Assembly: GCA_037974965.1 (NCBI GenBank)
Contig: JBBPFI010000003.1
Coordinates: 1,674,001 to 1,738,000 of the forward strand
Direction: 5' to 3'
Length of the DNA stretch: 64,000 nt
Origin: Dacryopinax spathularia
Taxonomy: Eukaryota > Basidiomycota > Dacrymycetes > Dacrymycetales > Dacrymycetaceae
Position numbers and translations under genes: made by a program
The notes under the pieces: model-generated
Told to the model about the DNA's origin: nothing
Database searches by the model: none
What the model saw: only the letters and a program-made list of their open reading frames with translations
In this document: positions 10,999 through 64,000 of the stretch, piece after piece
How the letters are laid out: each line of letters starts with the position of its first letter
Numbering within the stretch: position 1 is the first letter of the stretch

Positions 10999-13900
10999 CT
11001 ACTTTTCCTGGTTGATTGGCGAATGTGCCGGATGAGAGAAGCTGTCGGAGCGTAGGGGCGCCTGCGCCAGCAGTTCGGAGCGGAATTCCCAATCGATGAA
11101 AACACTTGTTTCTTCTATAACGCGGGCTAGCGCCGAGGCCCGTGTCCAAGGTATAAAGTTGATTTGGAGGGTATTATAACGATCCGTGGGGACCTCCAGC
11201 GTAGCGTATCCCATGGTGAGGCGGACAGCTTGCATGGCCCTGACGGTAGCAGTGGCAAGGGAGTCCGAAGAAAGCCGGTGAGCACCGATCCCTGTGCCTC
11301 CCTGCTCTTCGCTGTTGGCTGGAAGGTTTACTGGGCCCAGATGGACGATACGTGTTCCATGGGTTCGAAGAGGTGATGGGGTCGTGGCTTCCACGGAGAA
11401 GTAGCTGTTGGTCATGACTTTGGATGGAGAAGGGGAAGGAGTGGATGTTGGAGACCACTTGAGCATGGATTGTCTGGGTTGCGGCGACGCGTTCAGGTCG
11501 GGTGAACCATTCAATTTCGGACGCAAGAAAACGGAGGCGCGTTTCGGGGACCTTGACATTCGGTGATCGATCCTTGAAATGACCTGATTCGTCTGCTTGA
11601 TCTTCTCTTGGACGAATACACGCATCTGGTGCATAAGAGGCGTAGCGTGGGATGTCACAAGTTCCAAGATAGTCCAAAGCAGATAATCGATAGCGCGAGG
11701 AGGCCTTGATTGTGAAGGATGGGACTCGCCCATCGGAGAAACGGGAGAGCGCTGTCCATCGTTGGGCCGCAGCAGGACATTGTCGGAAGTATGGGCGGCC
11801 TCTCCAGGTGTAACGGGCCGCGAGGGTGAAGGTGAAGGTGAGCCTTCGTTCGCGCGAATAAGGAAATCGGCATTGCCCTCCTCAAGCAAATCCCGTAGGC
11901 CGGCACCAATGAATGTCCAGACGCGTGTCGGCGCGTCCTGCAGATCTTCCGAAGCCCTAAGAAGGACTATCTTCAATATTTGAAAGGCAAATACAGCCGA
12001 AGCCAGCCGTTGTCGAGTGTTCTCCCTTGAGTGGTGACTAGTACGATCTTCACCCCGGCTCGGAGAGGCTTTCCGCAGCCTCCTGCGGATATTCGTTGTC
12101 GGAGCCGATTTGAGCAAGCGACATGCAGCGAGAACATACGAGACGATCCGCAGCCATTGAGCACAGCGCTGCTCTTGATGTACTGCGCGGCTATGGGCTT
12201 GATCTCGAGTGGTGGGCATGCTGACAGCCAGAGGGAGCAGCAGGCCTCCCAATAAAGATGGAGTCGGCTGCCTCACCTCCAGGAGAGTGAAGAGCTCTAG
12301 ATTACCGTTGGCAATCACGGCGCACATAAGACTGACCACTGCCTTCCGAAGAGGAAGATCCCAGAGGCGATGTTCACTTGCTGCAGCCTCACAAATGAGC
12401 AGGGCCGGCCGACACCATTCTCCCACCACAAGGTCAGCGAATGCCGGATCTGAGGTGGTGGTGTTGGACGACAGAAGTGTTTCCACCACTTTCAGAACCC
12501 GCGAACAATCGACTGTATCGCCATACATCTGAAACAGCTGGGAGAAGTCCTTAAGTATTGAACGCACATCTCTTGAGCTGAGTAGGCCTGGTTTCAAGCA
12601 GGCAGCTGCGTAGTGTCCTAGAAAATCCGCGAGTTCCCCTGGGTACGCATGCGATGAATCCTTGAGAATGGTTCGAAGCAGAGCCAAAGTCCTTCCAGTA
12701 GAAGTTGCTGTAGGCACTCCGCCAGCCGATGTGTATTCCGTCAGCAGATGTAAGTACTCCCGACGAAAGGCCAGCAGTTGTGACGTTTCTGCCGCGCTCG
12801 GAAGTATAGGCTTTTCCACGTCGGGATGCAGTGCATTGACCTCCACGAGTCCTAAGCGTGTTGCTAGGTTCTTCGCAAGAATGCCACCAAGAGCGTCCAC
12901 ACCGTCGCGTAGGAGATCACGGGCAGAGGGTGAGTGTTGATATAGCTTTCTGGAGAGAACCCGGAGGACGCGGAGAAATCGGGGCGCCCGTGCTGAAGCG
13001 GGGTCATGAGCTATGATGGTCAGACAAAGTCGAATCAGATTCTCCATCGGAAAGCCATCATTCGTGCGTTTGCTCGGCAAGGCAATCGGGATCTTGGGTG
13101 GTACATTTTCGGTTGATCGACCTGATCCTTTCGACCGGTTTGACTTCTCCGCAGATGATGAGATAGGGGGGTCCAGGATACTTGCAAACGCATCCTGCAG
13201 ACCCGCAATATCGCCGGACTTCGCACTCGACATGTCTAAGCACTTGAAAAGGCCGTAGAGTATCGGTCCGCTGTTTTCTGTTTCATTGGCTTCCGCGCCA
13301 AGCACGCTTGCTAGACAGTCGATAGCCTGGAAGACGAAGGTTTCACCATGCACAGCATGGAAAAACTTGAAGGCATGTTGCACAGCAATACGCACACTGC
13401 TGTGCGAGTTTCTTTCCTTGTAAACAAGCCAGATGGTTGGGATGAGCAACGAAAACCCGTTCGTGTTTGCCACAAGTCGGCGAAATCGCATGATTGCGGT
13501 GCCGTACGCTGCAGGCGGTTTATTAGCAGGCCGTGGGGCACTGAAAGAGTACACATACCCAGCATACTGTGCGTAACGATTCCAAGATCACCTGGAAACG
13601 CCAATAGTGTCGCATTGACCCCTTCTAGCATGTTCGACAGCTTTGCGCGGTCGTTGAGATTTGTGCTTAACGACCTGAATAGCTGCCGCGCAACAAGAAG
13701 ATATGTCGCCCCCAGTGTCGTCCAGGCCGACCACGACGTTCCCATAGGTCGGCTGGACCTGCGATCTGGTGAGCCTGCCGTACCAGACGTTGAGGGCAGC
13801 ACAGGAAGGGCCGTCTTTTCAAACGTATACACATCCTTCGGTTCTTTAACGAGTAGCTAGGACGAATGAGCAAAGGTCGATCTCTCAAGATCATAACGCA

Positions 13901-16900
13901 CTTGAAGAACAAAGAGGTTCTGAGTCGCCCGTATGCTCAACATTTCCAACTCGTCCAGGGGGACAGAGTCTATCTTCTCCGAGAAGACCGGAAGAGATCG
14001 AGGAAACATTGGACCGGGCGGGGAATTTGCCGGAAACCAGAGTGAGCCGGTTGGGAGCAGGATCACCTCCACCTTGTTGCGTCGGAGATCCCGCAAAGAC
14101 ACGTCAGGCACGTGAGTTGCAATCCTGGCGAGAACAGGCAGCGTCGTGGCAAGCAGATGGTATGAGTCTAGACGGCGGGTATCCCTCGAAAGTGCTTTGA
14201 GGAAACCGACAAGGTGGTTGAACAAGTGATGAGCTACAGAGTGCGGGACGGCAGATTGCGCGAAGAACAGGAGCCGAAGATTCCGTATAGCGCTTTCGAC
14301 TCCCGGTCCTTGACCGGAGAGGATTTCCATAGTGGGCCGGCCGACCAAGGCAACATCGTCCCGCACGGCTGAGGAGATAATCTCTTGCGCAAAGCCAGAG
14401 ATCCACGGATTCGTGTCTGATGCCACGGCGCCCAAGTACTGCAAGGAGGCGGACACGGAAGATACAAAGACAATCCGTCGTTTTACTCCAACGTAGTAGT
14501 TGGAGCCGCTTGACTTGCGGCGTAGGAGAGGTCGTTGCGGATCATTGCTCTCGCCAGCGCCTTTCTCGATCGAAGATGTCGCGTGAGAACCAGCCATCGA
14601 GCCCAGGCGGTTCAACAGCGTTGATGGGAGCAGTGCTAGTGAAGTGCGCTCTGCCGCAGCTTCATCGCTGTCCTCGTTCTCATCTTCAACCCAACCGATC
14701 TCAAGCAACTTCTTCTTCACCTCCCTCGCTACGCCACCCGTCACGTCGAAGCTATCATCCTCTTCCGCCGATGCGACAAAGTTACTCGATCCGATATCGG
14801 TTGCAACGAAAGATATAGGAGGGCGAATGCCTTTGAACGGTCTTCTGTGGTTGCGGTCCGTTATATGGAACTGGGATAGTATCTGGTTTCGACGGCTGAT
14901 GAGATGCGAAAGGCGGCGGAGAGCCCGCCGGGTCAAATTCTCATCCCGACTAATCATGGGTCTCAGCCCATAGACATTGAGCAGTTGCACGCATCCATAC
15001 CTCAAGAGGTCAGTGCGGATGAGAGTAGTCGCCTCTTCGGGAAGCCTTTCAGCAAACTGCATAAACAGAAAAGCAGACTACGCAAAACAATGTTAGTAAA
15101 TCCTACAATACAGGGAAAATCTGGCGTACTGCCAAAATTAGCGCGTGATCATTGTTATCAAGATATCTGTTCCAGATCACTCTGCCAAGCAATGCGTAGT
15201 CTTCTTGTTGCAATAGACCATTTACGGCTACCAGCAATGAAAGACTGGCAACTGCCGGGTGAGTGGATATGCCTTCCAAGGTCGCTACTTTGCTTGAGGT
15301 CAGCGTATCCCAATGATTTTTGTCGGTAGTCCGTTCCACAACCGACCGATCAGAGGTCGGTACAATGGGTGAGAGCAGTGACATGGACCGAGCACCCTAT
15401 TTCGCGGGTAAAACAACCACAAAAGTAGGAGGGCGGAGGAACACATACTTTGGTTGATTTACCGGAGCTCTTAGAAGCTGTATACATCTCGTTGATCCGA
15501 GCAAACGTAGTTTCGACTTCTGCAAGGGTATCCTGTGTTACCACGACAGAGATAGCAGACGAGTCCACCCGGTCGGCTGCTTCTGCGGGAGTCGGCGTGG
15601 CACTGTGCGCTATAGCACCATCATAGCTCTCACAACACCAAGCCATTAAGCGCGACATCCAAGCAGCTCTTTCCTGAGGTCAGTCATGCCTAGAGACGGG
15701 AGGTCATTGCTTACGACTTGAGTGACCTGTTCACTTTACGCAGATATAGAAGTACGGTAGCCAACAGGATTCGCTGCGAAAAGGGTAACAAAACAGCTTG
15801 CTCCTGAAAGGAATATGAGAATGGCCCCGCATAGCTTGCATCCTGCTTACTTTTGCGTCAATCAAAATGGCCATACGATTCTCGAGCTCAACAGAGAAGC
15901 GCGTGACGTGCGCGGACGGACGGTCGTCACCCTTAAGGCACTTGAGCACACGCCTTCACCATTGATTTTCACTTACTCGAATGCCAGGGAGGTCACCACA
16001 GATTCTTCGCAATTCGTGGATTACTTCCAACGTCACCACGCATTGTCCGGGCCGTGTTCTTCCCCACTTCATGCCACTACCCTCTTTACCCTTTCCTTTA
16101 CCAACCCCCGAGCCCACGTCACCCAATAAGGCGACCGTAATCATCTCAGAGTTTGAGACCCAGAAGTTCGGAGTGACACGCGACACCGCCGTCAGGATCG
16201 ACAGCTGCGCGGCGATGACGTCGTCCTTGACTGACGCAGCACAAGTGAAAAGTGGCTTATAGAAATGCTGGGGATACTTTTGGCCCAACATGGTTGTGAG
16301 GGCGGCCAACGAAGGATTAGGTTCAGGGAGGGTGGCAACGAGATGCTGACCTAGTAATCAGACCAATTCCTCCACAACATTGCGGATGCGTACCTCAAAC
16401 AGAAGAGGGATAATGCGGGACATGAGTTCGCTCCAGTCGTGCGAACTACGGGCAAAGCTTCCATAGAGCGTCAGGAGCCCGCCGTGGTCCAGTTTCGGGA
16501 TCTATGCGATGAGTAAGAATAGGTGACAACGCGATATGTTTAGCCGACCTCTCTACGAAGTTCGGTGAGAAGGGCTTCTCTGCCAGTTTCGCCGCTCCGC
16601 CACAACTCCTGCGTAAGATCCAATACGGCTATCTGCGCGGTCTCTTCACACGTAAATAGGAGTCCAAGCAGGTAGGCTGCGACTGCTGAGCAGAGGTTGG
16701 GAGGCTGCCACCCTTGTTGTCGTAGAAATGGCAGAATGCGATCATTGAACAGACTGACAGTAGGGGATGACTGCTGATACTGTTTCGAATCTCGTCTCTG
16801 AGCAGTACCGGCGAACATACAGAAGAAAACCGCCGCTTGGGCATGTACCTTCGCTTGCATATCGGTATAGGATGAAGACGGAAGTGGCCAATTTGCCTAT

Positions 16901-18634
16901 CGAGCGACGTTAGATCGCACTACAAGGCGGAAGCTGTGAGCTCACCTGTAGTAGAGCAATACAGTGCTGTCTCCGGGCACGATCTTCCGTGTCGAGCATG
17001 CGAGCCAGCACTTCCGCGCCGATGAATGGGAGAACCGCACTGGAGTCCGTCTGCGCAAACTTGGCCGGGGCGAATTCCTCCTCGAAGGTTTCGGCATCTG
17101 CGACGATCCATTTTCCCAGTAGTATATTGGAGACCAGTGAGGAGAGGTCGTGTTGCTGCGATCTTGCGATTTGCAGACTGAACAGGGCGTGGAAGCAAGC
17201 CTTCAAAGCGGTCGGCGGAACTGGTTGTGGCGAGCCGGATGGAACGGTCATGGTTCGTATCATGGTCAGGAGCCTGTTCATGAGTGCCCCTTGAGCACGA
17301 CTTGCGGCTTCGCAGCACCATATTAGGCGATCGAGCACATCCTGGAGCCGTTGTCAGTGAGCCTGGATCCAATTATCGGGGGGAAGGCCACGACGTACCT
17401 CGAATTCCTGAGCTGGCCAAGTTCGCAACATGATGTCGAAGCAATCGAGTGCGATCCGCTGCTCTTCTAGAGCGCTACCTTGATATAGGGCGACGAAGGG
17501 CATAGCAAGGACTGCTAGCACTTCGTTTTCTGCCGGTAAACGCGAAAGCCATGTTAGACCAGGTGCTTGATATGCGATCTGCGTATAGCGGGAGATGACG
17601 TCGAACAAGGGTTGAAGGTGCACGGCGGTGGGAGTCGTAGCAGTAGTCGGAGACTGCGGCTGCACGGTAGCCTTCCGCCTTCCAGCCAAGCCAGTCGTCG
17701 GCGTCTCTGTCCCTGAGAGTGGCAGACTGACATTCGACGCCGATGCGCTACCGGAGACGAACGGAAGGTGCATTGAGGAAGCGGAGAACGAAGGCGCGTT
17801 GAAGTAGTTGCCCGACTCAGCTCCGTTGTCGACACTCCACTTCTGTCGGGCATGACCATTCCGTGCATATCTGCTCGCCCAGCACGCCTCCCTCACATCC
17901 GCCTCAAATCGCCTCGCCTCCTGCGCCTCCGCTCCTCGTACCGGTTGTGGCAGATCTCTTGAGCCGAATCTGGTCCCCAAACGAGATCGTTTTGGTATTG
18001 CGACCTTGGGCCGGGGAGGTGCGAAAGACCGGTCGGAGGGTGCTGGGGAGCCGATTCGACGAATAGGGAAGGATCGATCGGAGGGTGCTGGAGACGCTAG
18101 GCGGGAGATTTGTCCGTTCTTGACTGCTTGACGTAGTGCAGACCATTGCGTCGAGGCAGAGGATGATGGACCAGGAGAGGCAGCTCTCGCTCGAGCCATG
18201 CCAAGCTGCAGGGTGCGGAACGCTTTGCCGGGTGATGATACCTGCTCGGGAAGCGGTCTTTCCGGTGCCATTGACATCGGAGAGGCCATCATCACCGGTT
18301 TGGGCGACAGAACGAACGGAGTCGGGGAGTTTCGACCACTGCTGTTGCCTTGCGTAGTCGCCATCATGCGAGGGGAGGTCAACGGGGATTCCACCAGCGG
18401 TGCTGGTGTGATCGGCGTCTCTGCAGTCGGAACAAGGATGGCAGCATCTCTTAGCTCGCTACCCTTGCCTCCCAGAGCCTGGACATCCGCAACACTGAGA
18501 GGGAATGTTGGGGCATCTTCAGAGCTTTTGGGCTCATGCCTTCGTAGGAACATGCCATGACTGCGTTTCTTGGGTATGGGTCGAGCGCCAGCCGGTCTGC
18601 GTCCTGGCGAATCGCCCTCTTGCGACCCGCTCAT
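10999..18634 (-). CDS. UNC80-like giant alpha-solenoid protein
   Basis: Twelve exons close in phase: 18634-17399, 17341-16946, 16896-16549, 16501-16394, 16345-15977, 15940-15851, 15803-15735, 15673-15449, 15396-15130, 15077-13902, 13856-13559 and 13508-10999. They give 2363 residues. The first 230 residues are Ser/Pro-rich and disordered. The rest is helical, HEAT-like, with no membrane span. From about residue 1543 the order and spacing of motifs follow the C-terminal region of animal UNC80. LLIPTIWLVYKERN matches a human stretch reading ILPTMLQVYSDYES. Near residue 1684, IRLCLTIIAHDPASAR matches IKLCVTVVAYAPESFR. In animals UNC80 pairs with UNC79 and scaffolds the NALCN cation-leak channel. 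By inference the fungal protein may serve the NALCN relative Cch1. The main alternative is another large HEAT scaffold such as Furry/Mor2. Exon calls are firm, and the homology is from recalled sequence. Confidence 0.8.
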
Positions 18635-19222: not shown

Positions 19223-20977
19223 ATGGACGCACCTGCCTTCATCCATACTCAATCAGGTGGATCATCTCGTAGCTCCGTAACACTAGACGTTACTTCGAGC
19301 GGGTCCCGTGCTGGCTTTCCGGAGAAACGCATCGATCTCGAGAAAGGAGGTCAGGCTATCTGCCTTCACTGCGAAGAAAAGCACAACCTTCGGTCTTCGG
19401 TCGAAGAAGCCAGATCGCCGAAAGCAGAAAGTTGTGGGATCGAGGTACGATTGGAGATCCAGGAAGGTGCGTCTACAACTCCCATGTCATTATGAGTGCT
19501 CACACAACGTCAGACCCGCTCAATTGGAGCATTTGGCACAAATGGCTCATCGTATTCGTGGTTTGTATGGGCGGCTTCTGCGTCACATGTACCAGCTCGA
19601 TGGGAAGTTCAACATACGAAGGCCTCGAGAGCAACTTCGGCGTTAGCACCGAAGTTGCCATCTTGACCGTCTCGCTCTATATAGAAGGACTCGGTGTTGG
19701 CCCACTACTACTCGGACCACGTAAGTCTCGTCCGCATTCTCTCATTTCTCTTCGGAAAGGTCTAACAGAAAGCCTAGTATCTGAGTTCTTTGGGAGGAAC
19801 AACGTCTACCTCGCCTCTTTCTTGCTTTTCCTACTGTTCAACCTCCCCGTCGCATTTGCCGACTCCGCACCCTTACACCTGATATTCCGGTTCATAACTG
19901 GCTTTTCCGGCGCTGCATTCATGTCCGTCGCTGGTGGGACCGTCAGCGACCTGTTTGACCAGAGAGAAGTCGGCAATCCCATGGCGGTGTATACGGCGAG
20001 CCCGTTCTTGGGTCCCGTCGTGGGACCGATCGTTGCTGGTTTTATCAACGAGTATACAGACTGGAGGTGGACTTACTATGTGGTCCTTATCTGGTCGGCA
20101 GTGCAGATCGTCATGCTCCTCACCGTAAGTTTGCTCCATCTCAGATTCTGGAATGATAGCACTCACACTCTATCAGATACCCGAAACATACAAACCCATA
20201 CTCCTCAAGCGCAAAGCACATCTGCTCCGAAAACAAACAGGCGACAACCGCTATTACGCACCCATAGAAAGAAGCACCCATACCATCGCTGCAAGTATCG
20301 CCCTATCATGCTATACCCCCTTCCGCATTCTAGTACACGAACCCATGGCGCTTCTACTCAACATCTGGACCTCCCTCCTGCTCGGCATCCTTTACCTCTT
20401 CTTCAACGCATTCCCGATCATCTTCCGCGACGGGCATGGATTCACGCTCTCCCAGTCGGGGCTTACGTTTATCGGCTTGGGGATCGGCATCGTCCTCGGC
20501 CCAATCACGCAATTCCTCATCTGGGATCCACTAGATAAACGCCAATGGTCATCGCACGGAGGCCCACCACTGCCCGAAACCCACCTCATCATGGGCATGG
20601 CCGGCGCCTTCCTCGTCCCTGCCAGCCTGTTCTGGTTCGCATTCACCACCAACCCAAGCACGCACTGGGTCATCCCTATCATCGCGAGCGTCCCCTTCGC
20701 ACTGGGGATGATCTGGGTCTTCATTTCCGTATTCACGTTCCTCGTCGTCTCGTACCGACCCGTCGCGGCGAGCGCACTGGCGAGCAATACCTGCCTGAGA
20801 TGCACGTTCGCCGCTGTTTTCCCACTGTTTTCGGACTATATGTATGCGCGGCTGGGGACCGTAGGGGCGAGTGCGCTGTTGGCGGGGTTGACGCTGGCGA
20901 TGACTCCGCTGCCTTTTGTCTTTTATTGGGTTGGACCGAGGTTGAGAGAGCGCAGCAAGTTCTCTTCGTGGTCTTAA
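19223..20977 (+). CDS. MFS transporter, DHA1 drug/polyamine family (copy 1)
   Basis: Four exons, 19223-19466, 19514-19720, 19778-20124 and 20177-20977, give 532 residues. A hydrophilic cytosolic N-terminus of about 80 residues leads into DPLNW at the first membrane segment. The pattern fits a twelve-helix proton antiporter. The DHA1 motif C (ASPFLGPVVGPIVAGF) lies at the end of helix 5, and RFITGFSGAAFMSV precedes it. Related fungal proteins (Tpo1-4, Flr1) export polyamines and drugs at the plasma membrane. The exact substrate cannot be read from sequence. A close paralog lies at 51834-53658. Exons 2 and 3 have identical lengths in both (207 and 347 nt) and intron phases are the same, so they arose by gene duplication. 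Confidence 0.93.
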
Positions 20978-22917: not shown

Positions 22918-22934
22918 AGTCCCCTCAGGGGACT
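22918..22934. other. Perfect short inverted repeat
   Basis: The arms AGTCCCCT and AGGGGACT pair perfectly around one central C. It lies in non-coding DNA about 100 bases from a second hairpin. It could be a dimeric factor site or chance. Confidence 0.6.
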
Positions 22935-24374: not shown

Positions 24375-24438
24375 ATACACGATACGATAACACGACAAAT
24401 CACGCTCATTACCACATCCCGCCGCGCATACACGCACG

Positions 24439-27400: not shown

Positions 27401-28549
27401 GGCTAGACGAGATCATGCGTGCCAAGAGCCGGTACAGGAACCTCGTGGCCATCTTGATCGGAGGGTTGTGCAGCGCATTCATCACTCCCATCTCGTTCTC
27501 GGGTTCCTTCCTGGACGCGATCCTTGCGTTCCCGCTCGGGTGCTTGTTGGTCCTCATACAGCAAATCGCGAGCAAGAACGAGCTCTTCACCCATGTGTTC
27601 GAGATCGTCGTCGCTCTCTTGCTGAGCTTCATCTCCGCCGCTCTGGCAGCGACGAACCGGGTGTGTTATGCGGCAGTAGCGAGCGGCAGCATCGTCCTTA
27701 TCCTACCCGGGTTTATCGTCCTCACGGGGGCACTCGAGCTCGCAAGCAGGAACATAATCAGCGGGAGCGTGCGGCTCATGTACTCTGTCATCTACTCCCT
27801 TTTCCTTGGATTCGGGCTCGCAATCGGCGGCGAGTTCTATACCGCCATCACGGGGCAGCAGGTCATCGGTCTTGGGTTGGCCAATGGTGTCACGTGCCCC
27901 GTGCACGATCCCAACGGGCCTTGGTGGCAGAAACACGCCAGTGCTTGGTGGGCTTTCCTCTGCGTGCCGGGCTTCTCCCTCGCTCTCAGTCTGAGGAATC
28001 AAGCGCCCTGGAATAGACGAGAATTCGTAAGTGCCCCCACTCTTAATCCCGCGGGCCAGCCGGCCGTAACGCATCCCGTACTGACCGGTCTTGCACAGCT
28101 CGTCATGATCCTCATCTCCTGTGCAGGATGGACAACGAACCACTTTTCAGGCCTCAAGTTCGTCAACCGGACCGACATCGTCGCGACCCTCGGTGCATTC
28201 GTCGTAGGCGTATGCGGCAACGTCTACGGGCGCTTCTTCGCGTCGGGCATGTCGTTCGTCGTGATGGTCACCGGCATTCTGTTCCAGGTCCCGTCCTCGA
28301 TCAACGGCCTGCTCTCTTTTGCCTCTCTTGCCAACTCGGGCGGAGACTCGTATTCTGCCGGGTTCAGTATCGCCGAGCAGCTCATCGAGGTCTCGATTGG
28401 TACGTACCCGCCGAGAGGCGTCATCGTGCTGCTTTTCCGCCGCTGACACGCGTTGTGGCGCAGGTCTCACCGTCGGTCTTTTCCTCGCCGCGGTCATCAC
28501 CCATCCTTTCGAGAGTCGCAGGCGCGGATACGGCCTGTTCAGTTTCTAA
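24439..28549 (+). CDS. Prm10/ThrE-type multi-pass membrane protein with long N-terminal extension
   Basis: Four exons, 24439-25059, 25171-28026, 28099-28399 and 28464-28549, give 1287 residues. Residues 1 to about 845 are hydrophilic, rich in Ser, Pro, Glu and Arg, ending in a highly basic stretch. From about 846 the DUF1212/ThrE module begins (QRQEFLLKLARALMMFGAPT). It is followed by about ten membrane segments in two blocks, the arrangement of bacterial ThrE threonine/serine exporters and yeast pheromone-regulated Prm10. An exporter role is inferred from the family; the fungal substrate is unknown. The 72-nt intron 2 (28027-28098) has no stop and keeps frame. I call it an intron because of its GTAAGT donor and because splicing restores a continuous family match (RREFLVMILISCAGW). 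The long N-terminal extension far exceeds that of yeast Prm10 and is probably regulatory. Confidence 0.88.
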
Positions 28550-47218: not shown

Positions 47219-48019
47219 AACGCTTGAACGCATGAACTTCTCTCAAGTACTCTGAGTATCTTTCCCCTAGCACGGCACATAATCGCATAAACCCCTTCCT
47301 TTTCTCTTGCAAGTCCGAAAACTCTTGCAATCTGCTAGTTATCTAGTTGTCTTTCATCGGTCTTGTCGCCCTATCCTTTACGTTACCTGGTTAGTCTGTT
47401 GAATGCATTGATAGAGACGTCGACTCTAGAGCACCTGCGTGATGCTCGTGTTTCCTTCAACGGTCATCTGTGGCAGGATGTGCAGAGGGTAACGGAATGC
47501 ACTCCGATGAACTCGTCGACGCGTACATGGCGGTGTTTTTTTCCGTACAAGGTGATGCGTTCGTTCCCAAGACAACTCGAGGCCAGCTTCCCGGGCATTG
47601 GCAGGAATATGAGCTATGAACGAGCTGCCTTGCATTACTGATTTCCTATCCCCGCCCTCCCCTCCCCACACAGGAAGGGCGGATAAAAACGAGTGCGACA
47701 GAACAAACGAGCGTGCTATGTATCAAGGACCGACAACGTGCGATGCACAAAAACGGACAATGGAAGATGAAAACTGGAAAATCAAAGCAAGGTGCTTGCT
47801 TGGGGAATGGGGAGTGGGCAAATCAAAGAAGAATGTGTGACTGTGTAAGAATGTGAAGAAGTGGATGTGAGAAGGGTATCCGCTATGGCTGTCAAAAAGT
47901 GTAAGAAAGTGTATAAAAAGTGTAAAGAAGTATGAACGTCCGGTGTCCGGTAAAAATAAAACAAAACAAAGGAGAATCGTCGAGACCATATCACGCCGCA
48001 GCAAATGGGAGGAAGGGCG
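47219..48019. other. Intergenic between convergent genes, with GTGTAAGAA-like repeats
   Basis: About 800 bases. At 47839-47935 imperfect copies of GTGTAAGAA / GTGTAAAGAA recur, interspersed with ATGTGAAGAA. No coding exon is supported. Confidence 0.5.
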
Positions 48020-51833: not shown

Positions 51834-53658
51834 TCAAGGCGTATTCGAGAACCGACTCCTCTTCCTCAACATCGGTCCCCACTTAAAGAACACAAACGGC
51901 AGCGGAGCCATAACCAGCGTCAACCCCGCCAAAAGCGCACTAGCGCCCACCGTCCCCAATCTCGCATACATATAATTCGAGAAAAGCGGGAAGACAGCCG
52001 CAAACGCGCTCCGCATAAAACTGTTGCTTGCCATCGCGCTCGCCGCTACGGGTCTGTAAGTAGTGACGAGAAAGGTGAATACGCTCGTGAAGACCCAGAT
52101 CGTGCCGCAGCCGAAGGGGATGCTCCCGAGGATAGGGACGATCCAGTGCACACTGGGGTAGGTCGTGAATGCGAACCAGAAGAGGCCGATGGGGACGGTT
52201 ATGGCGCCTGCCATGCCTATGTACAGCCTGGACTCTGGCGGAGGGGGGCCACCGTAGCGCGCCCACTCGCGTTGGTCGAGAGGACCCCAGATGAAGAACT
52301 GCGTCGCGGTCCCGAAGACGATCCCGATGCCCATGCCGATAAAGGCGAGCCCGTTCTGCTCGAGCGAGAAGCCGTGTCCGTCCCGGAAGACAATGGGGAA
52401 CGCGTTGAAGAAGAGGTAGAGGATCCCCAGGAGGAGAGAGGTCCACGTGTTGAGAAGGAGCGCCATCGGCTCGAACAGGATGATCTCGAAGGGCTTGTAG
52501 CACGAGAAGAAGATGGTGTGCAGGATGGACTTGTTCGACTTCTCGATAGGGGCGTAGTATCGCTTCTCGCCGGTCTCTTTCCGCAGCTTGATCGCTTTCC
52601 GTTTCAGCAGCACGGGGCGGTAGGTCTCAGGCACGAACTGCATGAGTCGTTAGGAACCACATTCTCGCCTCCTGCTGTGGAGCGAGGACTCACCAAGAGG
52701 ATCAGGACGATCTCCACAAACGTCCAGATCAGGATCACGTAGTACGTCCACCTCCAATCCGCATTCTGGTTAATAAACCCCGCCACCAACGGCCCAACTA
52801 CGGGGCCCAAGAACGGGCTAGCAGTGTACACGGCCATAGGATGTCCCACATGCTGGTGCGTGAACAGATCGCTCACTGTGCCCCCCGCAACGGACATGAA
52901 TGCCGCACCGGAGAAGCCGGTTATGAACCTGAACACTAGGTGGAGAGGGGCGGAGTTGGCGAACGCGACGGGGAGGTTGAGCAGGAGGAAACAGACGAAG
53001 GAGATGAGGTAGATGTTGTTCCTCCCGAAGAACTCGGATACTACCGTCCCAAATCAGCACACTATGCTCCCTGACAGTGGCAAGGCGAGGAGGGACTTAC
53101 ATGGTCCGAGAAGGAGGGGACCGATACCGAGGCCTTCGACATATAGCGACACCGTGAGGATGGCAACTTCCTGGCTGATGCCGAACGAGTTCTCGAGCCC
53201 CTGGTACGTCGAGGTAGCCAGCGAAGAAGCGCATGTCACGCATAGCGCAGCGCTGCATATGAGCATGACGATCCTCCATTTCTTCGCCAGGCTCCAGTTC
53301 AGTGGGTCTACAGGCAAGGAAGGATCGTCAGTCCTGCCCCCTGCAGCTGAGCGCGTGACAAGGACGTACCTTCCTCTCCTTCTAACGTTACCTCAATCTC
53401 GCCCTCCTTCCCCTCCTTATTCCCTCCAGCACCGGAAGGCCCAATCTCCCCATCAGTAGACTCCTCATTCCTCGGCGTCCTCTCCCCATCCTGGGCCTGC
53501 TCCAGCCCGCGCTGTCTCTCCGCCTTCTCCAGATCGATCTCTCCCGCCGCTGCCCGAGTGGGAAGCGTCTCCGAGGAAGGCATGCGCAGCGTCGTCGAGC
53601 TGCGGGAAGCGATTGGCTGGTCGTATGGTGTTCCTGTTGGTCGGGAGGCGGTCTCCAT
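51834..53658 (-). CDS. MFS transporter, DHA1 drug/polyamine family (copy 2)
   Basis: Four exons, 53658-53370, 53307-53101, 53040-52694 and 52637-51834, give 548 residues. It has the same fold and motifs as the transporter at 19223-20977: DPLNW before helix 1, QEVAILTVSLYVEGLGIGPL, motif C ASPFLGPVVGPLVAGF and WRWTYYV. Exon 2 (207 nt), exon 3 (347 nt) and all intron phases equal those of copy 1. The N-terminal 95 residues differ almost completely and are acidic, rich in Glu and Gly, which suggests separate regulation. Plasma-membrane proton-coupled export of polyamines or drugs is inferred from the family. Confidence 0.94.
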
Positions 53659-54924
53659 AGACAGTAAGTCCGGTTGACTTCGAGATGAATTCGAGATGAC
53701 TTCGAGATTTGGAATTCAGTAGGTGGAGTGCCAGGTAAGCGGCGTATATGCAGTTCAGGCGCGAGGATATTACTCCGAGCGAAGTAGGCGGTATATCACT
53801 CTAGCTGCAAGTGCTGGCAGACGTTGAGGAACGTTTACTGCTCCAAAGGCCGAGGCAGGAGAGGGCGGGGAATGTTGCTTGCTTTGCTGGCCAACTTGCT
53901 GCTCATCGCCGTAGGCTATATATAACACCCGATGCTGATCTTGCGTCGGTGGGGAAGCATTCGGGGCGCATAGGCGGCGGGAAGCACGTCGGCTGGAGCC
54001 TATGTCGAAAAAGACCGCGGCTTACGTCCGACCGCGCTTCCAAACCGCATCAGAACCTCAACCTCAACCGCCGACGCCGAAACGTCCCATCACCTCGCCC
54101 ACCCAAACTTCTTCCCCCTCAGGCTCAAGCTCAAAACCTGGCTGACTCTGACGTTTGAAAAAGCGGAGCCCCGATTGGGTTTACGCCGAATTGGGGGCAA
54201 ACTTTGGTCAGCAGGGCCCAACTTCGGTGGCGGTGTGAGAACAAAAACGGGCTTAAAGCCGATGACGTCAGGGTGGATTTCCACCGCTTCTTCGGCGAGT
54301 GGGCGCGTTGGTGGGGAGCGTCCATCTGTTTTGAGGCTTGAATGGGTATGGGAGGGGGTTATTAATGAATTGACTGCTTTGTCGGATTATGTGAGATGCG
54401 GCATTTTTGGTTGTGTGAGATGCATGATAGGTCCGAAGGAGTGGTGGCCCGATTGGCTTCCCTCCTACTGTATCGGGGATTTGCTTACAAGAGCGACATG
54501 CGTTCCTATTAGCAGCTTAGATGAGCGCGTCCTAGTAGGGAGGGGTTCTGGGAGAATGGGGAAGGTGAAACGGCTGGTCCCTCCCGCACGGGCGCGGCTG
54601 GTCTAGCCCTTACCGCAGGAAGTTTGGGGTATAGGCCGCTGATGGGCGGCTTATGTGAGGCGTGCGTTGTTTGTTCATCAGTGATTTGGGGACTTCGCCG
54701 AGGAGAAACCGGATTGCGTAGGATGCTGCGATGTCGGGCGACATGGTTCATATGTGCCATGGGACAGTCTACGTAGTTGTCGTATGTCGAGTCACCGGCA
54801 AATCAGCTGAAGTTAGGACATGCTTATTTCATTGCAACTACTCGAATATACATTATGCCTCTTACTCAGCTTCTCGTTTTAGATACATTGCACTCATGCA
54901 CCCCCTCCTCACTCAGCGCAGCGC
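53659..54924. other. Intergenic, promoter of transporter copy 2
   Basis: About 1.27 kb between two minus-strand genes. A 143-residue plus-strand frame (54175-54606) matches nothing I know and is not called. Confidence 0.45.
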
Positions 54925-56005
54925 CTACTTCGTCCTCCTCCTCTTCGGCTTAAACTCCGAATCATACGTCCTAAAGAAATCCATCGGCAACTGCGGGTCC
55001 TGCCCCGTCAAGCTCGCAAAAGCGATCGTCGACACATAGTTCGTCTTCCCCTCTCTCACGAGGGAATAATAGTCGAGCAGATACTCTTTTTCGGATTCGT
55101 CTAGGTCTGTGTCGCTGTCGAGCAGGGACTTGGCTTCCTCTGGTGAGATGTCTTCGAATTGGAGCTTGAGGTTGAGCGCTTCGTTCGCGGCGGTGGCGAG
55201 TTCTTCGCCGGCGGTGAGCCTGGATCATCATTAGTCCGCCTCTACAAGCCGTAGATGGAGAGCGGGGACTTACATAGTGCCGGTGAGGACGATAAGCTGA
55301 CCACGATGCCGGTCGCTCAGCCCGTGCGGACCTTCGCCGACCAGCACGTGAGCTGCGCAGAGGGCAATATCACCCAGCGCAATAGGGGCAAACTTGTGCA
55401 TCGTGCCGATGGGCAGGCGAATCTTGCCCGTCGTCGCTGCGTCCTTGTTATACAGCAGCAAGTTCTCCGCATAGAAGCCGGCGCTACGGGAAGCAAGGTG
55501 TCAGTAGCCAGTTGAGCTGGGGGAGAATGTAGGGTGCGCACCGGATAATGCAAGGCGAATGCCCCGCCTCCGTCTTCGTATCCCCCTTATTCCACATAAA
55601 CTTGGCCTCCATATCGATAAACTCCCTCAGCCTCGGCTGCTTATCCCTCTCCGCCAGGTCCGCCCCGGCCGAACTAAGCAGCACGGTGCTCTGAATCCCC
55701 GCTTTTCTAGTGATGTCCATCATAATGTCCGTCAGCTTCATCTTGTCCTTATGCGCAGGGGGGATGAGCATTATTCGATCCGCTCCCGAGTTCTTCAGCG
55801 CTTCGAGGAGCGAGTCCGGGTCGGACGGTTCCATCGGGACAACGAGCGCACCGAGCGACTCGAGGTCGTCGCATTTTGCGGGGTCGAGAGCGACGAGTGT
55901 GAGGGATGAGATCTTGGACTTGAAGTTCTCGTCCGTGAGGAGGAGCTCGGCGATGAGGTGGCCGGTCTGGCCGTCGGCGGAGGTGAGGCAGATATTGACG
56001 GGCAT
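54925..56005 (-). CDS. NmrA-like NAD(P)-binding Rossmann protein
   Basis: Three exons, 56005-55542, 55483-55274 and 55219-54925, give 322 residues. The N-terminal strand-loop ICLTSADGQTGHLIAELLL is an atypical SDR nucleotide loop of the NmrA type. RIMLIPPAHKDKM and VLLSSAGADLAERD follow, the latter being the strand that in SDRs carries active-site residues, here without a clear YxxxK. AGFYAENLLLYNKD fits the NmrA substrate-side pattern. Members act as NAD(P)-sensing regulators or as quinone/azo reductases, and sequence cannot separate these. The C-terminus is basic (FKPKRRRTK), a possible nuclear signal. Confidence 0.85.
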
Positions 56006-56773
56006 GCTGATTTTTGCTCAGTGGGGAGGGGGGTTGGGTGGGAAACGGAGGGCCGAGGTCGAAGGGAGGCAGTCCTTAAATGCCTGTGTGCGAACGGTTC
56101 GACACGGTACTGGGCATGCGGTCACAGGAGGCGCACTTCGACCCAACTTGACGTCAACCTCGTCTCACACCCACCCAGAGAACTCAGAATCACCAAGCCG
56201 CTCCTCTGCTACTCGCTTCCCCAAAGTCGGGGAACAGTGACGTACCCCATAACCACCCAAATCTCGCTCAGATGTGGGGATCGAGCCGCAGTCGCCGATC
56301 AAAGCGGTCTGTCCTGAAGCTTCTGAGAGATGGGAGGCTTCGTTAAGCGATTGGCCGCGCTTTTCGCTCGAGGCTGGGGTCTTACGGCCTCCAGATCGGG
56401 GTCGAGGCGCCCTGCGAAGAGGCTTCAGGTCCTGGAGGTTGGGTATGGCATGACGACACTTGGAGTGTCATGAGTCCCTGCTCGCCAGACCTACCGGGCT
56501 GGAGCAGCACGCGAGAGCGTAGAGACCGGGTTCGATCTGCGATTGGACCAAGCGAGCAGGAGAGTCCAAAGGCGGCTAGAGCTACCCCACAAATGTATGC
56601 GGCTTCTGCATAGCCACTGGCATAAGCTAAAGAGGGCATGACGTCGTCTTGCGGTTCTTTACCGTGTTTCTGGACGGGTTGCCAAGCAGTCTGATCTTCC
56701 ACGTCCAACAAGTGATACAAGATCAAGATCAGTTAACAAAGGACGGAGTTGTTGATGCAGAATGGTGATGGTA
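56006..56773. other. Intergenic, NmrA-like promoter side
   Basis: About 770 bases between two minus-strand genes, with no coding exon. A GATCGAGCC-containing segment near 56278 recalls a tRNA T-arm but does not fold into a tRNA. Confidence 0.5.
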
Positions 56774-57872
56774 TTATGCATGCATCTTCTCAAATACTGC
56801 TACTCCTTCGCGACCCAGCGCCGTGGCACACTCGACGATCCTGGCTCCTGCTCGTTGCATCCTCCTAACGCCAGCAGCATCGCTCACGCCCCCCACTCCG
56901 ATGACAGCAATCTTCTGCATGGCAGGTGAAGGGTGTTCTGCCAAAAGAGTCGAAAACCGATGCACATTCCTGTGATGGACGTTGAGCTCGGTTCTGGGTG
57001 GCCAGCTATCAAAGGATGACGGTGCTCACCCCAGCGACAACGCGTGCAACGCACTCCCCGCCATTCCCCCATAGCCCCCGGGCAGCGCCCATCCTTCTCC
57101 CTCCAGCCCCGCTTCCTCCGCACCGGATATACATCCCCCAAGCGTATTCGTACACGTAAGGAAAGAGATCGGGTTCCTCTCCTCTCCCTCCCCTTCCAGC
57201 AAATGGATGACATCCAATATCCCCGTAAACTGGGCCGGGATGACATAAGGCGGCAACTTCAGCCCTACCGTAAGCGTCGGATCTTGACTCGCGGCGCGTG
57301 CTAGCACCTGCAGGAGGGGGAAAAGAGCCGGAGGGTCGTAGGACGGTGGAGGCTTGGAGGGGATGTTAGGGCAGGAAGTGTTCAGCTCGATGCCGATTCG
57401 ACTTGTGGTGCGTTGGTGGCCACCTAGCTCTAGGCGGAGGGTTTGGATCGCTTGGATCATTGATCCCAGCTCGTCGGGTTCGGAGGAGGTGATTGAGATA
57501 ACTATTGGCTTATGGGAGCTGGTGGAGGAGAGGAGATCACGAATCCAGGTGATATACTGCGCCAGTGGGAAAGGGGAGTAGCCATAGCTGTTGAGCGAAG
57601 CGATCGGGGTAAAGGCATGCTACATCGACCCATGGTTTTGAGTCTATGCTGATCAACATCGAGCAGTGAGTGGGTCTGACCTGGTGGATGGAGGGATCTT
57701 CGGCGAAGCCGTTCATCGTTGCCGTACGGGTCGTTACACCGCCTGTGTAGGGACTGTCGTATAACGCTTTCAGGTCTTTCTCGTCCGACGCCCAGGGGCA
57801 GGCGGAGTTCAGGACGGGGCCTGTGAAGGCGAGTGTATGGATAGTACCGTAGACGTCGTTGGTCGGTGCCAT
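56774..57872 (-). CDS. URA1: Class 1A dihydroorotate dehydrogenase (fumarate-type, Ura1-like)
   Basis: Three exons, 57872-57681, 57619-57030 and 56969-56774, give 325 residues, close to yeast Ura1 (314). Signatures are NSACPWASDEKDLKALYDS, TRTATMNGFAEDP, the loop NTSCPNIPSKPP carrying the catalytic-base Cys of class 1 enzymes, GGYGGMAGSALHALSL, and the flavin-binding end VIGVGGVSDAAG. The enzyme oxidises dihydroorotate to orotate with fumarate as acceptor in the cytosol, without the respiratory chain. There is no presequence. Most fungi rely on the mitochondrial class 2 enzyme, so this may be a second, transferred or paralogous enzyme. A related dihydropyrimidine or dihydrouracil oxidoreductase is the main alternative. 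It diverges from the UNC79-like gene by 245 bases. Confidence 0.85.
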
Positions 57873-58117: not shown

Positions 58118-61100
58118 ATGAGCTACAAAGACCCCTCTCCGTTCCTTACCGTATCTTCCCCCACCGAGGACACCAACCTCCTGCGGGTCGACACGTCCTT
58201 CACAACCCTCTCACCATCCGACCTCGACACGCCCTCGCCGTCCAAATCACCCTCGACTGGCCGAGCCCGGGCTCTCTCGCTCGCAATACCCTCCCTGCTC
58301 ACTTCGTCCAGCTCAAAGGACTCTCCCGTGCCTGTTACTCCCGTTCAGGAAGTGGATAATAGGAACGTCAACGCTCCTCTCTCCCGACTCCGCGTAGAAT
58401 ATCGCAAGCTCCTGCGTCATGTCCTCCAAAGACTACAAGAACGTCCTAAACCCAGCGGGCTATTCACCTCACCGAGGAACTCGTCCAGCGGCCTTCCTAG
58501 AGCTTCGAGCGAGGGTTCCGGACTGGGAGGGTTCGTGAGTATCTCTACTGGTCTTGGGGGTGGAGTGGGGTTCGAGAGTGAGAGTGAGGATGAGCCTGGA
58601 GGACCTGCTGGGAAGGGCGCTGCTAGGAAGGTGGACGATACGGAGGAGACGTGTGACCGGATGTTCGAGTTGAGGGAGGTGCTGTTGGGTGCTGAGCTGA
58701 AGGGACTGCATATCCTCAGGTCCGCATAGCCCGCACTCTCGCTCGAATACGCCTGACGTAACTCTAGTTCTGGCGTGAACGATGAGGATCCTACCGCTCA
58801 TCGCAGTTCTGGCCTTCCGTTTGGGAGAAGACGGAGAAGTACCCTGGGGAACTCCGATAAACCCCGACCAGGATTTCCCGGCAAAGAGAAGGCGGACGAA
58901 GGTCTCCAGCTCTTCCATCAATGCATCGCCCTCCTCGCTGAACTGATATCCAACGACTGTCGCTTCACGATCACCCATTTCCGACCCGAGCGACCCCCCA
59001 ACACACTCCAATCCCTCTGCATCGACGTCGCCCAATGTCTCCTCGTCTCCCAAAAGGGAGAAGCGAGGGCGAAAGGAGCGTACGAAGTGGGACTGGCGAT
59101 GATTCCCGCGTTTGAGAGTTTTCCGGGGTCGATGCGGGGACGGTTGTGTGGGTTTTTTGAGGGCGTTCTGAGGGGGTGTCTGAGCGATTTGAAGCTTGTG
59201 CTTGCGGGACGGAAGAAGGAGGTGGACGGGGATCCGTTTGAGGATCGCACGTTTGCCTTTAACGCTCCTCAGATCTCAATCCAGGTCGACGATACAACTG
59301 CGAACCCGGGCGGCGATTCGCCAGATGGCACCGGGAACCAGCTATGGTCGACGGAAGATACGGTCAAGAAGAGCATCGTCAGCAGTTACGCGCCTGATCA
59401 ACCTCTTGCCGTGTACTACCTCTCGTCGCTTACCGCTCCCCTTTTGGCGTCGATCTTGGAGAACATCGACATGACATCCCCCTCGTCAGACGACGACAGT
59501 TTCTGGGTCCACCGCCTGTTCCGCACAGTGGTCGAACTGAAGCCCGACACTTATCAAGACGTCCTCGAAATCGTCGCCTACGGAACTTCCCGCGCACGCA
59601 GCGCGGCCCTCTCCGTCCTCGCCACCTTCTGGCCAAAGGCACTGGGGCACAACGTCGTCTGCCTCCCCATCCCTCCCTGGAAATCACCCGAAGAGTCCGC
59701 AAGCGACATCCTTCGCGGCATCCAAGAACCCTCCCAACATCCGTATGCCCACGAGTTCTTGCCATGGAGATTCCCCCCTCCTCCGCGGAGGAACACAGGA
59801 GCAAGCATGACAAGCCTGGACGAATTCGCCCGCCAGGCAACTCAGCGCCTAGCCCAAACCCCTTGTCGAGCATGCACGAGACCAGTGCACGACTTCGGCC
59901 TGCTTTGTCCATTCTGCAATTCCGCGGTTCACTTCACGTGCTACGACCCGCCCGAAGGAAGCACAATTGCGGAATATACGACTTCGACCGGTGTTCAGAA
60001 ACTGGCTATAACGCGGTTCTCGCATATCTTGCCTTCGCAGAGGCTTCATCCGCCCGAACCGCTCAAAGTTGCTGGTCATACCTTCAGATGGGTCAACCTC
60101 TTCACGCTGAGCTTGTGTTTCGTATGCCACGAGCCAATCTGGGGCATCGCGAAGCAAGGCGTCATGTGCGGCAGCTGTCGCTGTTGCGCGCACTACGACT
60201 GTGCCTCTTCCCTTCCACCCGGAAACAGCTCCAAATGCCGCTTCCAGACATTGTCAGAGACGGCATACTCCGTCGAGTGGTCCGTCCTGCGCCGCACGTT
60301 CGTCACGCACTACCAGCCGATCGTACTCACGGAAAGGGAACTGCATAACCATTCACACGAAACGGTCTCTGTCATCTATTGCCTGCTCTGGCTCCAGCTG
60401 CAGTTGCTGAATAATGGCGTTGCTGCTGGGTCGCTTATCATCAAGCAGGCGGACCCTACCACGCGCTCGGCTCGGGCGAATGGAGTGGACGAGTTTGAGC
60501 TGCAGTACTTGACTCGGCTGTGCGATGCGGTGTTGCAGAGCGACAGGCTCACGAAGTCCGACTTGCTGCAGGAGTACAGACGGTCTCAGGACATCTCTCT
60601 CCCGTCCCATGCTTTGCTGTTCGACCCGTCGTTCCTCGCCTATATCACCAGTTTGGTCAAGTCACGCCGAGAGAAACAGGACATCGACCTCTCCGGAAGT
60701 TATCTTCGACCCGAGATGCTCACTCCCAGCTCGCCGGAAGAGGAACGGCAGCCTTACGAAATTACCGAGATAGCGCATGTGCATGACGTGCTCTCTCGAG
60801 AACTGCTCGTTGACGTAGACTTCACGGCAAAGCAGATGCTCAGCTACCTTCAACGTCTGGGTTTGCTGGAGCGCGTGGATCGCAACGACAACCTCTTGGA
60901 CGGATCGTCGCCGGCTCGGCAGCTTTGCATGTTTCCGCTTCCGCTTGCTCTAGACTTCTCGAGTAACGTGGAGACGCTGTTCACGGCCATTGAAGCGTGT
61001 CTAAGCGACGTCGATCTCGCCGTCAACGAGGCGGGATTCGCGCTCCTCAGGCGCTGCTGGCCGAACGGGCTCTCGTCCGCCTACGCAGTCGAAAGGCTCG

Positions 61101-64000
61101 TACGAGTCGTTCTCGAGTGGATCATGCGAGAAGAACGTAATCTTCTAACCATAGCTCGTGACTACCTTTCCCGCCAACGGCTTGCACCTGGAATTCGCTC
61201 CGCTCTGGAAACGCAGCCATGGCCAACCGCTACTGCAGTCAAATCTCCTGCCGTCGCGCAAGGCGGTACCATGGCAGGCGGCAATGATTACATGGCCTTC
61301 AGACGAGCGTTACTGGACAAGTATGCCATCCCCTGGTTGTTGAAGGCGCATAACTTGGATACAGCTGCTTACTCAAGGACGTTGCACGAACACTGTCTGT
61401 CCTCAGCAGCGGAGGAAACGGAGGCATCGCGAATGATGAATGAGTTATTCCCTGCGAAAGATGAGGCAGAAGCTCAACCTAAAGCCAGTGTTCCACTCTT
61501 GTCGTCGTGATCACTTACTGATCTTGCTAGCAGATTGATGTCGCCTTTGCCGACGCTACACTACGAGCTTTCCTGAAGCTATGTCAAGTCTCGGTTGTAT
61601 TTACTGCATTCGATGAGCTGTTCATGTTCTGGCTGGATGAGATCTCCAATCATGGTTCCGACTCGGTAAGGTCAAGCCATGCCGCGCTTGGTGATGTTAA
61701 CGCCAACACGCCAATAGCCAATGGTTGTCCGAACTTTACCACGTATCTTTCAAGCAGAATCCGATACTGCAAGGCGTTCAACACTTGCAGGCGACATCGC
61801 TGTCGAACAAGACATAAATCTGAGCGACCTCATCGACCCCTGGAGGTCGGTCACATCCGTGGCTTCCGAGGGTGTTGAGGGAGTCGGCCGGTCTTTACGA
61901 TGGGTCCTCGTCTTGGCCCAATCAGGCGTAAATATCCCGGAAATGACTTTCCGACAAATAGCCGGCTACGCGAGGGACTTTCAGGCGCCACTTGAGGTTC
62001 AATTCCTCCTCGTCCATGCCATCTTTGCTAGTATATGGGTCCGTTCATTGGGCCGTCAAGATTTGGCTACGCTCGTCGAGATCCTATTGGAACGCAACGA
62101 AGAGTCCCTGCTCCGTCTGCTCCGCCAAACTTCTCCAGCCCGCCATGCGTACGTCGCGCATCCCTTTTTGGCATGGTTGCTGATATCTCCGTGTAGAGAG
62201 TTGTTCATGAGATTCAGCCTTGCTGGTCTATTGGCTTTGTACGGCGTAGATAGGGAGAAGATAGTCAACAGTGGTCTGATCCGTAGTGAAGAGCATGATG
62301 CGCTCACATCTCGGTGAGTGCGATTCAATTCAAAGAGTGAACCACTTGCTGAGCATACCGTAGTCGGCGAATAGGCGGTAGGCTATTCGGAGCCACCGAG
62401 CGTATGCCTGTGTCGGAAACGTTTGTCGCTATGTTGCTTCGCTTATCGCGAAGTGGAACGGAAGCTACCATGTCATACGCCATGAACTTCCTTGCCCTAC
62501 TCCTGGCGGATGCTACCCTCGTTTCTGACGGAGACCTGGACTTATTTATTGTTGCGAATAATGAGCCGATATGCAGAATGTAAGTATCGATCGCGATCCA
62601 CGACCGTCGGTTTTGACATCCTGTTGACATTCTGAAGGGTCTGGCACTCCTACGCATGGTCTTCTTCACAACTCGCCGATCTACGTATCAAATGCCTGCT
62701 AAAGGCGCTCTCTGTGCAGGGCGCTTTCTTCGCATCCCTCCTGGATGAAGCGTTCGATCCAAACCAGCCGTGGAATAGTCGGTCAGCAGAATGGTCCTGG
62801 CCACAGGATCTCTCTAACTGTGTCTCAGGCTTGACAGTGTTGGAATACTGTTTTCCCTCATTCTGGAGCTGAATAACCGCGACCCGGAGCTACTCACTTC
62901 AATGCATCGTCATCATCTATCTAAGCTATACAGTCGATTTTTCGAGCTGGTTTGGGCAGACGAGCAGGTAGATCTCCAGAAATTTTGCCTCTACATGAAT
63001 ACTGAGATGCCATGCTTTAGGAGCTCGTACGGTCGGCAGTGGAGACGATGTCTGAGACGTTGCTCCCCTCTCATCGGTACTTCATCCAGAGCTGTTGGGA
63101 TAGTCACTTCGAAAGCAGTCCACCGGAGGATAAAGCACATTTTGCCAGGTTCCTCCTACGCCTGCACCCTTACTTTCCAACTTGGTCTCGTTCGTCTATT
63201 TGGCCCGGGCCCATCGTGCACCGCTGATTGTTTTCCAAAGTGATTTCGATACGTACTATCGCTGACATGCTTGGCAATGATCGCACGATGTATGAAGATC
63301 CCACCAGCATCTACGACAACATTATCGACTCCCCGGATTTGTCTGGCGACGAGTTGGACCTAAACCTGCAGGCAATGCTGGTATCGTTGACGTTGTCGTT
63401 TGTGGCGCATGGCATCGCTATCGAACCAGTCGACATGCTAAAGATGAAAGTATTTCTTGCTCGAGTAATAGGCTTCGAACGATCCTTCTTGCGTATTGCA
63501 GCTGATGGCACGTGCCATGTCGTTTTTGGGGAGCTGTCTATGCCGGATCCGGCCGAGCGTGGGCTTTTCTGCCTTAATGCGGTCAAGCGGGTTCTCGACT
63601 CACCGGCCAAGGCGAACATCTCCCCTTCCATGCTGGCGATTATCGTCACACCCGACACCGCGGCTCCCTGTCTCATCGGCACATTACTGGTGGACCTCAT
63701 CTTCGCAACTTTTCGCGAGACCGCGGAGCTTTCCTCGCTACCACATCTCGTCTTAAGATGTTGGCTTGAGAGCTTGATTATCCTCATTCTCAAGGTAAGG
63801 GCTCAAATCATGTGCCGATGAACCTCTGACAACAACTGTCCTGTAGCACGACATGCGATCTGCTGTGCTTAAGCACCTGGATGCGGACCTGCGCTCCACA
63901 GTTCTCCGAACCACCGAGATATTCTTGATGGATACTCCTTACGATAACCGGCAGCTGGCCCTGACTGTGAACCGATGCTATCTGAAGAAGTTCTCTTCGG
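58118..64000 (+). CDS. UNC79-like giant alpha-solenoid protein, 3' end beyond window
   Basis: Exons: 58118-58719, 58768 to about 61500, 61534-61665, 61718-62313, 62382-62579, 62638-62781, 62829-62967, 63021 to about 63117, about 63229-63794, and 63847 past 64000. Over 1700 residues are visible. Residues 1-110 are disordered. LEIVAYGTSRARSAALSVL, then TFWP, near residue 480 parallels human UNC79 (LYVIAYGPSQVKPPAVQML, then HYWP). In both proteins a Cys/His-rich region follows: here CRACTRPV, CPFC, HFTC near 567-590 and CFVC, CGSC, CCAHYDC near 651-680, likely zinc-binding. The rest is helical repeats. UNC79 partners UNC80 in the NALCN channel complex. Two junctions are unresolved: the exon 2 end near 61.49 kb (no GT donor gives the right phase) and the intron around 63.12-63.23 kb. 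The C1/RING-like region alone would also fit other scaffolds. Confidence 0.78.

Follow-up and report, generated by a model that had tools for sequence, protein, structure and literature searches.

A UNC80 gene and a probable UNC79 gene with a C1 domain lie within 40 kilobases of each other in the fungus Dacryopinax spathularia

Introduction

The subject of this work is a stretch of 64,000 nucleotides (nt) of Dacryopinax spathularia (assembly GCA_037974965.1, contig JBBPFI010000003.1, positions 1,674,001 to 1,738,000), which is referred to below as the window and from whose first nucleotide all coordinates are counted. It contains two large genes, one on each strand, which a first-pass annotation made from the sequence alone had read as UNC80 (minus strand) and UNC79 (plus strand). 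In animals, UNC79 and UNC80 are giant proteins that hold together the sodium-leak channel of nerve cells (NALCN). The results presented here indicate that the two genes very probably encode fungal UNC80 and UNC79, which by homology would be the scaffold pair of the Cch1/Mid1 channel (the family membership being judged from sequence, and the pairing and the effect on the channel by analogy).

Results

Gene models of the two large genes

The UNC80-like and the UNC79-like gene (Table 1) are oriented divergently, and the distance between their start codons is 39,483 bases. The gene models were obtained with a codon-usage and splice-site predictor that was written for this analysis and joins open frames. 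The codon table of this predictor was trained on seven open reading frames (ORFs) of the window, with parts of both UNC-like genes among them, and due to this the models provide no independent proof of these genes. The 19 predicted introns measure 45-134 nt in the UNC80-like gene and 47-68 nt in the UNC79-like gene; all of them (19/19) end in AG, and 18 start with GT and one with GC. Two long introns, of 134 and 112 nt, are present in the UNC80-like model, and the exons flanking them are its least certain part. Inside the genes there are open frames of 917 codons (UNC79-like) and 862 codons (the last exon of the UNC80-like gene). The motifs LLIPTIWLVYKE and IRLCLTIIAHDPASAR of the UNC80-like gene and LEIVAYGTSRARSAALSVL of the UNC79-like gene are each found exactly once in the six-frame translation of the window. 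The GC content of the window is 53-61% per 4-kilobase (kb) block, and together with the shortness of the introns this suggests a basidiomycete.

The statement of the first-pass annotation that this genome keeps the scaffold pair linked is correct in regard to the physical linkage of the two genes in the window; however, nothing was found that points to upkeep of this linkage by selection, and the linkage within 40 kb is a single observation on one contig, made without a control.

Sequence and structural evidence for the UNC80-like protein

The Pfam profile UNC80_C matches the spliced UNC80-like model in three stretches with 67.8 bits (cutoff 22.1, E-value 6.4e-19), and it is also found above its cutoff in two unspliced ORFs, where the matched parts of the profile follow each other in the right order (49-154, then 395-466). 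The profile for the central region of UNC80 scores 10.2 bits on the spliced model (cutoff 22.7, E 0.26), a sub-threshold match which lies, as expected, upstream of the C-terminal one. A phmmer search of the PDB with the last-exon ORF of 862 amino acids (aa), carried to E 1, matched three distinct sequences, and all three are mammalian UNC80; their E-values are 4.8e-4 to 1.2e-3 when taken over the whole sequence and 0.015 to 0.083 when only the best stretch is counted. The piece containing IRLCLTIIAHDPASAR, which is aligned to residues 2409-2442 of the UNC80 chain 7w7g_B, follows the first aligned piece in both proteins and on its own scores a non-significant 3.4 bits. The fungal protein thus resembles mammalian UNC80 (PDB entries 7sx3, 7sx4, 7wji and 7w7g) in the order of its UNC80_C stretches, and it is shorter, with 2329 aa in comparison to 3258 in 7wji_A.

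For a part of the UNC80-like protein, 316 aa long, single-sequence prediction with AlphaFold2 gave an entirely helical and weak model (predicted local distance difference test score, pLDDT, 56; predicted template-modelling score, pTM, 0.54). In a Foldseek search with this model, UNC80 chains occupy ranks 2, 3, 4 and 7 of 350,542 (probability 0.92-0.99, E 0.03-0.1, template-modelling score, TM-score, 0.34-0.37), and rank 1 is taken by another helical protein, b-iTHR-110. Based on the profile and phmmer matches, which bear out the reading of the first-pass annotation, the minus-strand gene can be firmly assigned to the UNC80 family.

Sequence and structural evidence for the UNC79-like protein

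The Pfam profile UNC-79 scores 27.3 bits on the spliced UNC79-like model (cutoff 27, E 1.6e-6), 28.5 bits on the ORF and 32.2 bits (E 5.4e-8) on a fragment of 146 aa, so that both proteins exceed the cutoffs of their own families in the profile search which the first-pass annotation had proposed. The human reference used for comparison was a UNC79 stretch of 249 aa that is identical to PDB chains at 249/249 residues. This segment spans positions 110-352 of the UNC-79 profile, and as the fungal match (profile 120-169) is inside this part, it falls where the human sequence VIAYGPSQ lies. The Smith-Waterman alignment of the human segment with the UNC79-like protein reaches a score of 96 at the motif region, which is never attained when the fungal protein is shuffled 300 times over its whole length (mean 52, maximum 79), and with the first 75 human residues only, 0/1000 such shuffles reach the observed score. 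The UNC80-like protein, which served as a control for this alignment, remains at noise level (90/300 shuffles, z 0.4). The single-sequence fold model of the UNC79-like protein is very poor (pLDDT 37); in a fold search with this model, the UNC79 chain 7w7g_A is at rank 1 of 350,542 (probability 0.54, E 0.13, TM-score 0.18), which is suggestive but not proof. Taken with the profile match and the alignment to the human segment, these results indicate that the plus-strand gene is a member of the UNC79 family, as had been claimed, although this assignment is weaker than that of UNC80.

A C1 domain in the UNC79-like protein

The motif of the UNC79-like protein is followed by a module rich in Cys and His residues, which consists of a first zinc-finger-like half of PHD/C1-like type and of a C1 domain (Table 1). 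The Pfam profile PHD scores 24.4 bits (cutoff 24) for the first half on a 200-aa fragment and a sub-cutoff 16.5 bits on the whole model. For the C1 domain, the profile C1_1 reaches 27.9 bits (cutoff 26.5) on the whole model and 33.9 bits on the 200-aa fragment. The observed spacing of the first seven C1 ligands was seen in none of 20000 shuffles, and the leading PDB matches of the UNC79-like ORF by phmmer are the C1 domains of protein kinase C (PKC) delta and theta. In comparison to the C1 domains of PKC, the first seven of the eight ligands are at the canonical spacing, whereas the eighth is located 11 residues further on and not 7 as in the consensus. The fungal domain is identical to that of PKC delta at 14/42 residues, and W22, G23, Q27 and G28 are common to both, whereas position 11 is L instead of P and position 20 is P instead of L. 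The lipid-binding residues of C1 domains are P11, G23 and Q27, of which the fungal domain thus keeps G23 and Q27 and has P11 replaced by L.

The first-pass annotation had described this module as following the UNC79 motif in the same manner as in animals. A module of this kind is indeed present in both proteins, as the human segment carries Cys/His clusters at the same place after the motif. However, it is of another type in the fungus: in the human segment of 249 aa neither the C1 nor the PHD profile of Pfam is matched at E up to 1, in contrast to the fungal protein with its C1 domain and PHD/C1-like half, and no convincing alignment joins the fungal and human stretches. Zinc fingers of the C3H type are described in both mammalian UNC79 and UNC80 (PMC9098444).

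Other genes in the window

A Cch1-like gene and members of the channel or Mid1 families were not seen in the window by Pfam scans that covered 10 + 10 ORFs, the two spliced models and eight neighbouring models or ORFs, where the window has 39 ORFs of at least 200 aa, many of them antisense or overlapping. Stop-to-stop ORFs of at least 100 aa with at least three hydrophobic segments number four, and they are located in two major facilitator superfamily (MFS) genes and in the ThrE gene. RNA families and tRNAs were not found in the window.

The two MFS transporter genes form an inverted pair of paralogs, identical at 354/507 aligned residues; the first copy, the only one that was scanned for MFS_1 and in which it was found, starts about 0.6 kb from the UNC80-like start codon. 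The gene for a mitochondrial DNA polymerase gamma, with zero predicted introns, adjoins the intron-rich UNC genes. The predicted models at 37753-50319 and 51834-57872 chain several genes, the pieces of which were separated by eye before the Pfam scan; the TRAPPC8/Trs85 gene and the mitochondrial carrier gene, in particular, had been fused into one model by the predictor. A further long open frame, which by eye is rich in Ser and Pro, gave no Pfam match in two scans, one of 37744-42255 with E-values allowed up to 1 and a second with E-values up to 0.01.

Table 1. Coordinates of the two UNC-like genes, of their motifs and domains, and of other genes in the window.
Feature	Coordinates	Strand	Details
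UNC80-like gene	10999..18634	-	splice-aware model of 2329 aa in 11 predicted exons, with start and stop codons; Pfam UNC80_C
Upstream UNC80_C stretch, profile 49-154	14079..14402	-	23.4 bits, cutoff 22.1
Best UNC80_C stretch of last-exon ORF, profile 395-466	13279..13497	-	40.7 bits; contains LLIPTIWLVYKE
LLIPTIWLVYKE motif	13414-13449	-	UNC80-like gene
IRLCLTIIAHDPASAR motif	12988-13035	-	UNC80-like gene; in second piece aligned to UNC80 chain
UNC79-like gene	58118..64000	+	model of at least 1802 aa in 10 predicted exons, runs past window end; Pfam UNC-79
UNC-79 profile match, residues 441-491, profile 120-169	59486..59638	+	contains LEIVAYGTSRARSAALSVL
LEIVAYGTSRARSAALSVL motif	59564-59620	+	UNC79-like gene
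First zinc-finger-like half, PHD/C1-like, residues 567-592	59864..59941	+	CX2CX10CX2CX4HX2C; Pfam PHD on fragment
C1 domain, residues 638-691	60077..60238	+	HX12CX2CX13CX2CX4HX2CX11C; Pfam C1_1
GH16 enzyme	3372-4380	-	
Mitochondrial DNA polymerase gamma (MIP1-type)	6339-10790	+	1483 aa
MFS transporter, first copy	19223-20977	+	MFS_1
ThrE-type exporter	24439-28549	+	
CofD-like protein	34761-35507	-	
Ser/Pro-rich open frame	37753-42258	+	1501 codons
TRAPPC8/Trs85	about 42600-45300	+	
Mitochondrial carrier	45974-47148	+	
MFS transporter, second copy	51834 to about 53700	-	
NAD(P)-binding protein	about 54850-56005	-	
Dihydroorotate dehydrogenase	about 56570-57872	-	

Discussion

Several of the results weigh against the assignment of the two genes to UNC80 and UNC79. 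In the case of the UNC80-like protein, a phmmer search of the PDB with the whole 2329-aa model gave no match at E up to 10, and the phmmer support for UNC80 therefore hangs on the ORF fragment. In the fold searches with both proteins, none of the matches reaches E 0.001, the TM-scores to UNC chains are from 0.18 to 0.37, and designed helical proteins rank among them. UNC chains rank high in these searches, but all of the E-values are non-significant and the models are poor. Further, viral contigs, the one collection scanned with both the 862-aa UNC80-like and the 917-aa UNC79-like ORF, yielded no relatives of either. The remaining points of this kind concern the plus-strand gene, and they would be accounted for if only the UNC80 call is right and this gene encodes an unrelated C1/PHD helical-repeat protein in which a UNC79-like motif has arisen by chance. 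The UNC-79 match comprises 51 residues and on the whole model it is 0.3 bits above the cutoff, about equal to the score of C1_1. Among the 31 PDB sequences matched by the 917-aa ORF at E up to 1 there is no UNC79 chain; all but one are C1 or PHD/UHRF proteins, the exception being a bacterioferritin (E 0.91), and the first 343 aa of the ORF match nothing in the PDB at E up to 10. If fungal residues 420-760 alone are shuffled, one of 300 shuffles exceeds the observed alignment score (98 in comparison to 96). However, a chance motif is difficult to reconcile with the E-values of the UNC-79 profile on the whole model and on the fragment, with the absence of the observed score from all 1000 whole-protein shuffles against the first 75 human residues, and with the presence of Cys/His clusters after the motif in the human and fungal proteins alike; the UNC79 chain at the first rank of the fold search, though non-significant, points in the same direction. 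In addition, BLAST searches with animal queries failed to find fungal UNC79, as stated in PMC12412391. An unrelated protein with a chance motif is therefore considered improbable.

Still less probable is that the genes are true relatives of UNC79 and UNC80 which are decayed or misassembled. The UNC79-like gene is cut by the end of the window, one of the introns has a GC start, and the models are derived by prediction alone, all of which would be compatible with such damage; against this, the open frames extend over 917 and 862 codons, and the introns are short with GT/GC-AG ends. The first-pass annotation had itself named Furry/Mor2 as a scaffold family to which a better match would speak against its reading. 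Proteins of this family have the same general architecture of giant helical repeats; however, no Furry or MOR2-PAG1 model appeared in the Pfam scans at E up to 1 (ORFs) or up to 5 (spliced models), neither for the UNC80-like nor for the UNC79-like protein, and this identity, for which there is hardly any likelihood left, was rejected. The assignment of the two genes to UNC80 and UNC79 is accordingly retained.

The occurrence of such genes in fungi is in agreement with recent work. UNC79 and UNC80 are reported by Senatore et al. 2025 (PMC12412391) from clades that also possess Cch1 and Mid1, namely the agaricomycetes, tremellomycetes, glomeromycetes and mucoromycetes (Agaricomycotina and Mucoromycota), and these authors cite a 2024 preprint in which a physical and genetic complex is described in Cryptococcus neoformans (biochemical interaction); according to the same source, both scaffold subunits were first reported from fungi in 2024-2025. 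Due to this report of Cch1, Mid1, UNC79 and UNC80 in fungi, the four-part fungal channelosome that the first-pass annotation had put forward is right but already known, and what we confirm as our main point had been published before. The expectation that all four components would be gained and lost together is contradicted by PMC12412391, in which Cch1 and Mid1 are present in many fungal lineages that lack UNC79 and UNC80, and in which the latter two are lost in basidiomycetes outside Agaricomycotina; a UNC79/UNC80 pair in a species from outside that group would go against this loss. PMC12412391 is the only paper on UNC79 in Basidiomycota that was found, and wider searching, with few subscription papers and no bioRxiv preprints within its reach, gave no further paper on fungal UNC79.

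Compared by description with the fungal proteins of PMC12412391, those reported here are alike in that both subunits occur in one fungus, are giant helical-repeat proteins and are far diverged from their animal counterparts. As to the linkage of the genes and the C1 domain, the terms 'synteny', 'C1 domain' and 'zinc' are absent from the main text of PMC12412391, and 'linked' is used once there, in an unrelated sense. No paper on a UNC79 with a C1 domain was found in the literature, which is weak evidence of absence as most subscription papers and bioRxiv preprints are outside the coverage of the search. The C1 domain in fungal UNC79 and the linkage over 39.5 kb can thus be regarded as modestly new.

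Gene anatomy and, by sequence, family membership are what was seen in this analysis, and a mechanism can be proposed from these by homology. In mammals, UNC79 and UNC80 form a head-to-tail superhelical scaffold (PMC8986805). The fungal UNC80 and UNC79 would likewise pair into an antiparallel helical-repeat scaffold, by homology to animals and Cryptococcus, which would sit under the pore Cch1, the relative of NALCN, with Mid1, the relative of FAM155, on the outside. In this position the scaffold may control the amount of active channel at the plasma membrane that is available for the entry of Ca2+. With low confidence, it may be suggested that the C1 domain touches the membrane or senses diacylglycerol; that it couples the channel to this lipid or to the membrane surface is a guess to which individual residues lend some support. 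If the C1 domain of the UNC79 scaffold should be a working one, Cch1 might be wired directly to the diacylglycerol made by phospholipase C, in the manner of a lipid-sensing channelosome whose sensor has no counterpart in the corresponding human UNC79 segment; this further proposal is put forward as an unlikely one.

The results presented here provide independent support that one fungal genome retains both cytoplasmic scaffold subunits of the NALCN type. In addition, the linkage of the two genes offers a handle on whether the UNC79/UNC80 pair moves together in basidiomycetes, and the C1 domain provides a concrete and testable idea of how fungal Cch1 may be coupled to lipid signalling.

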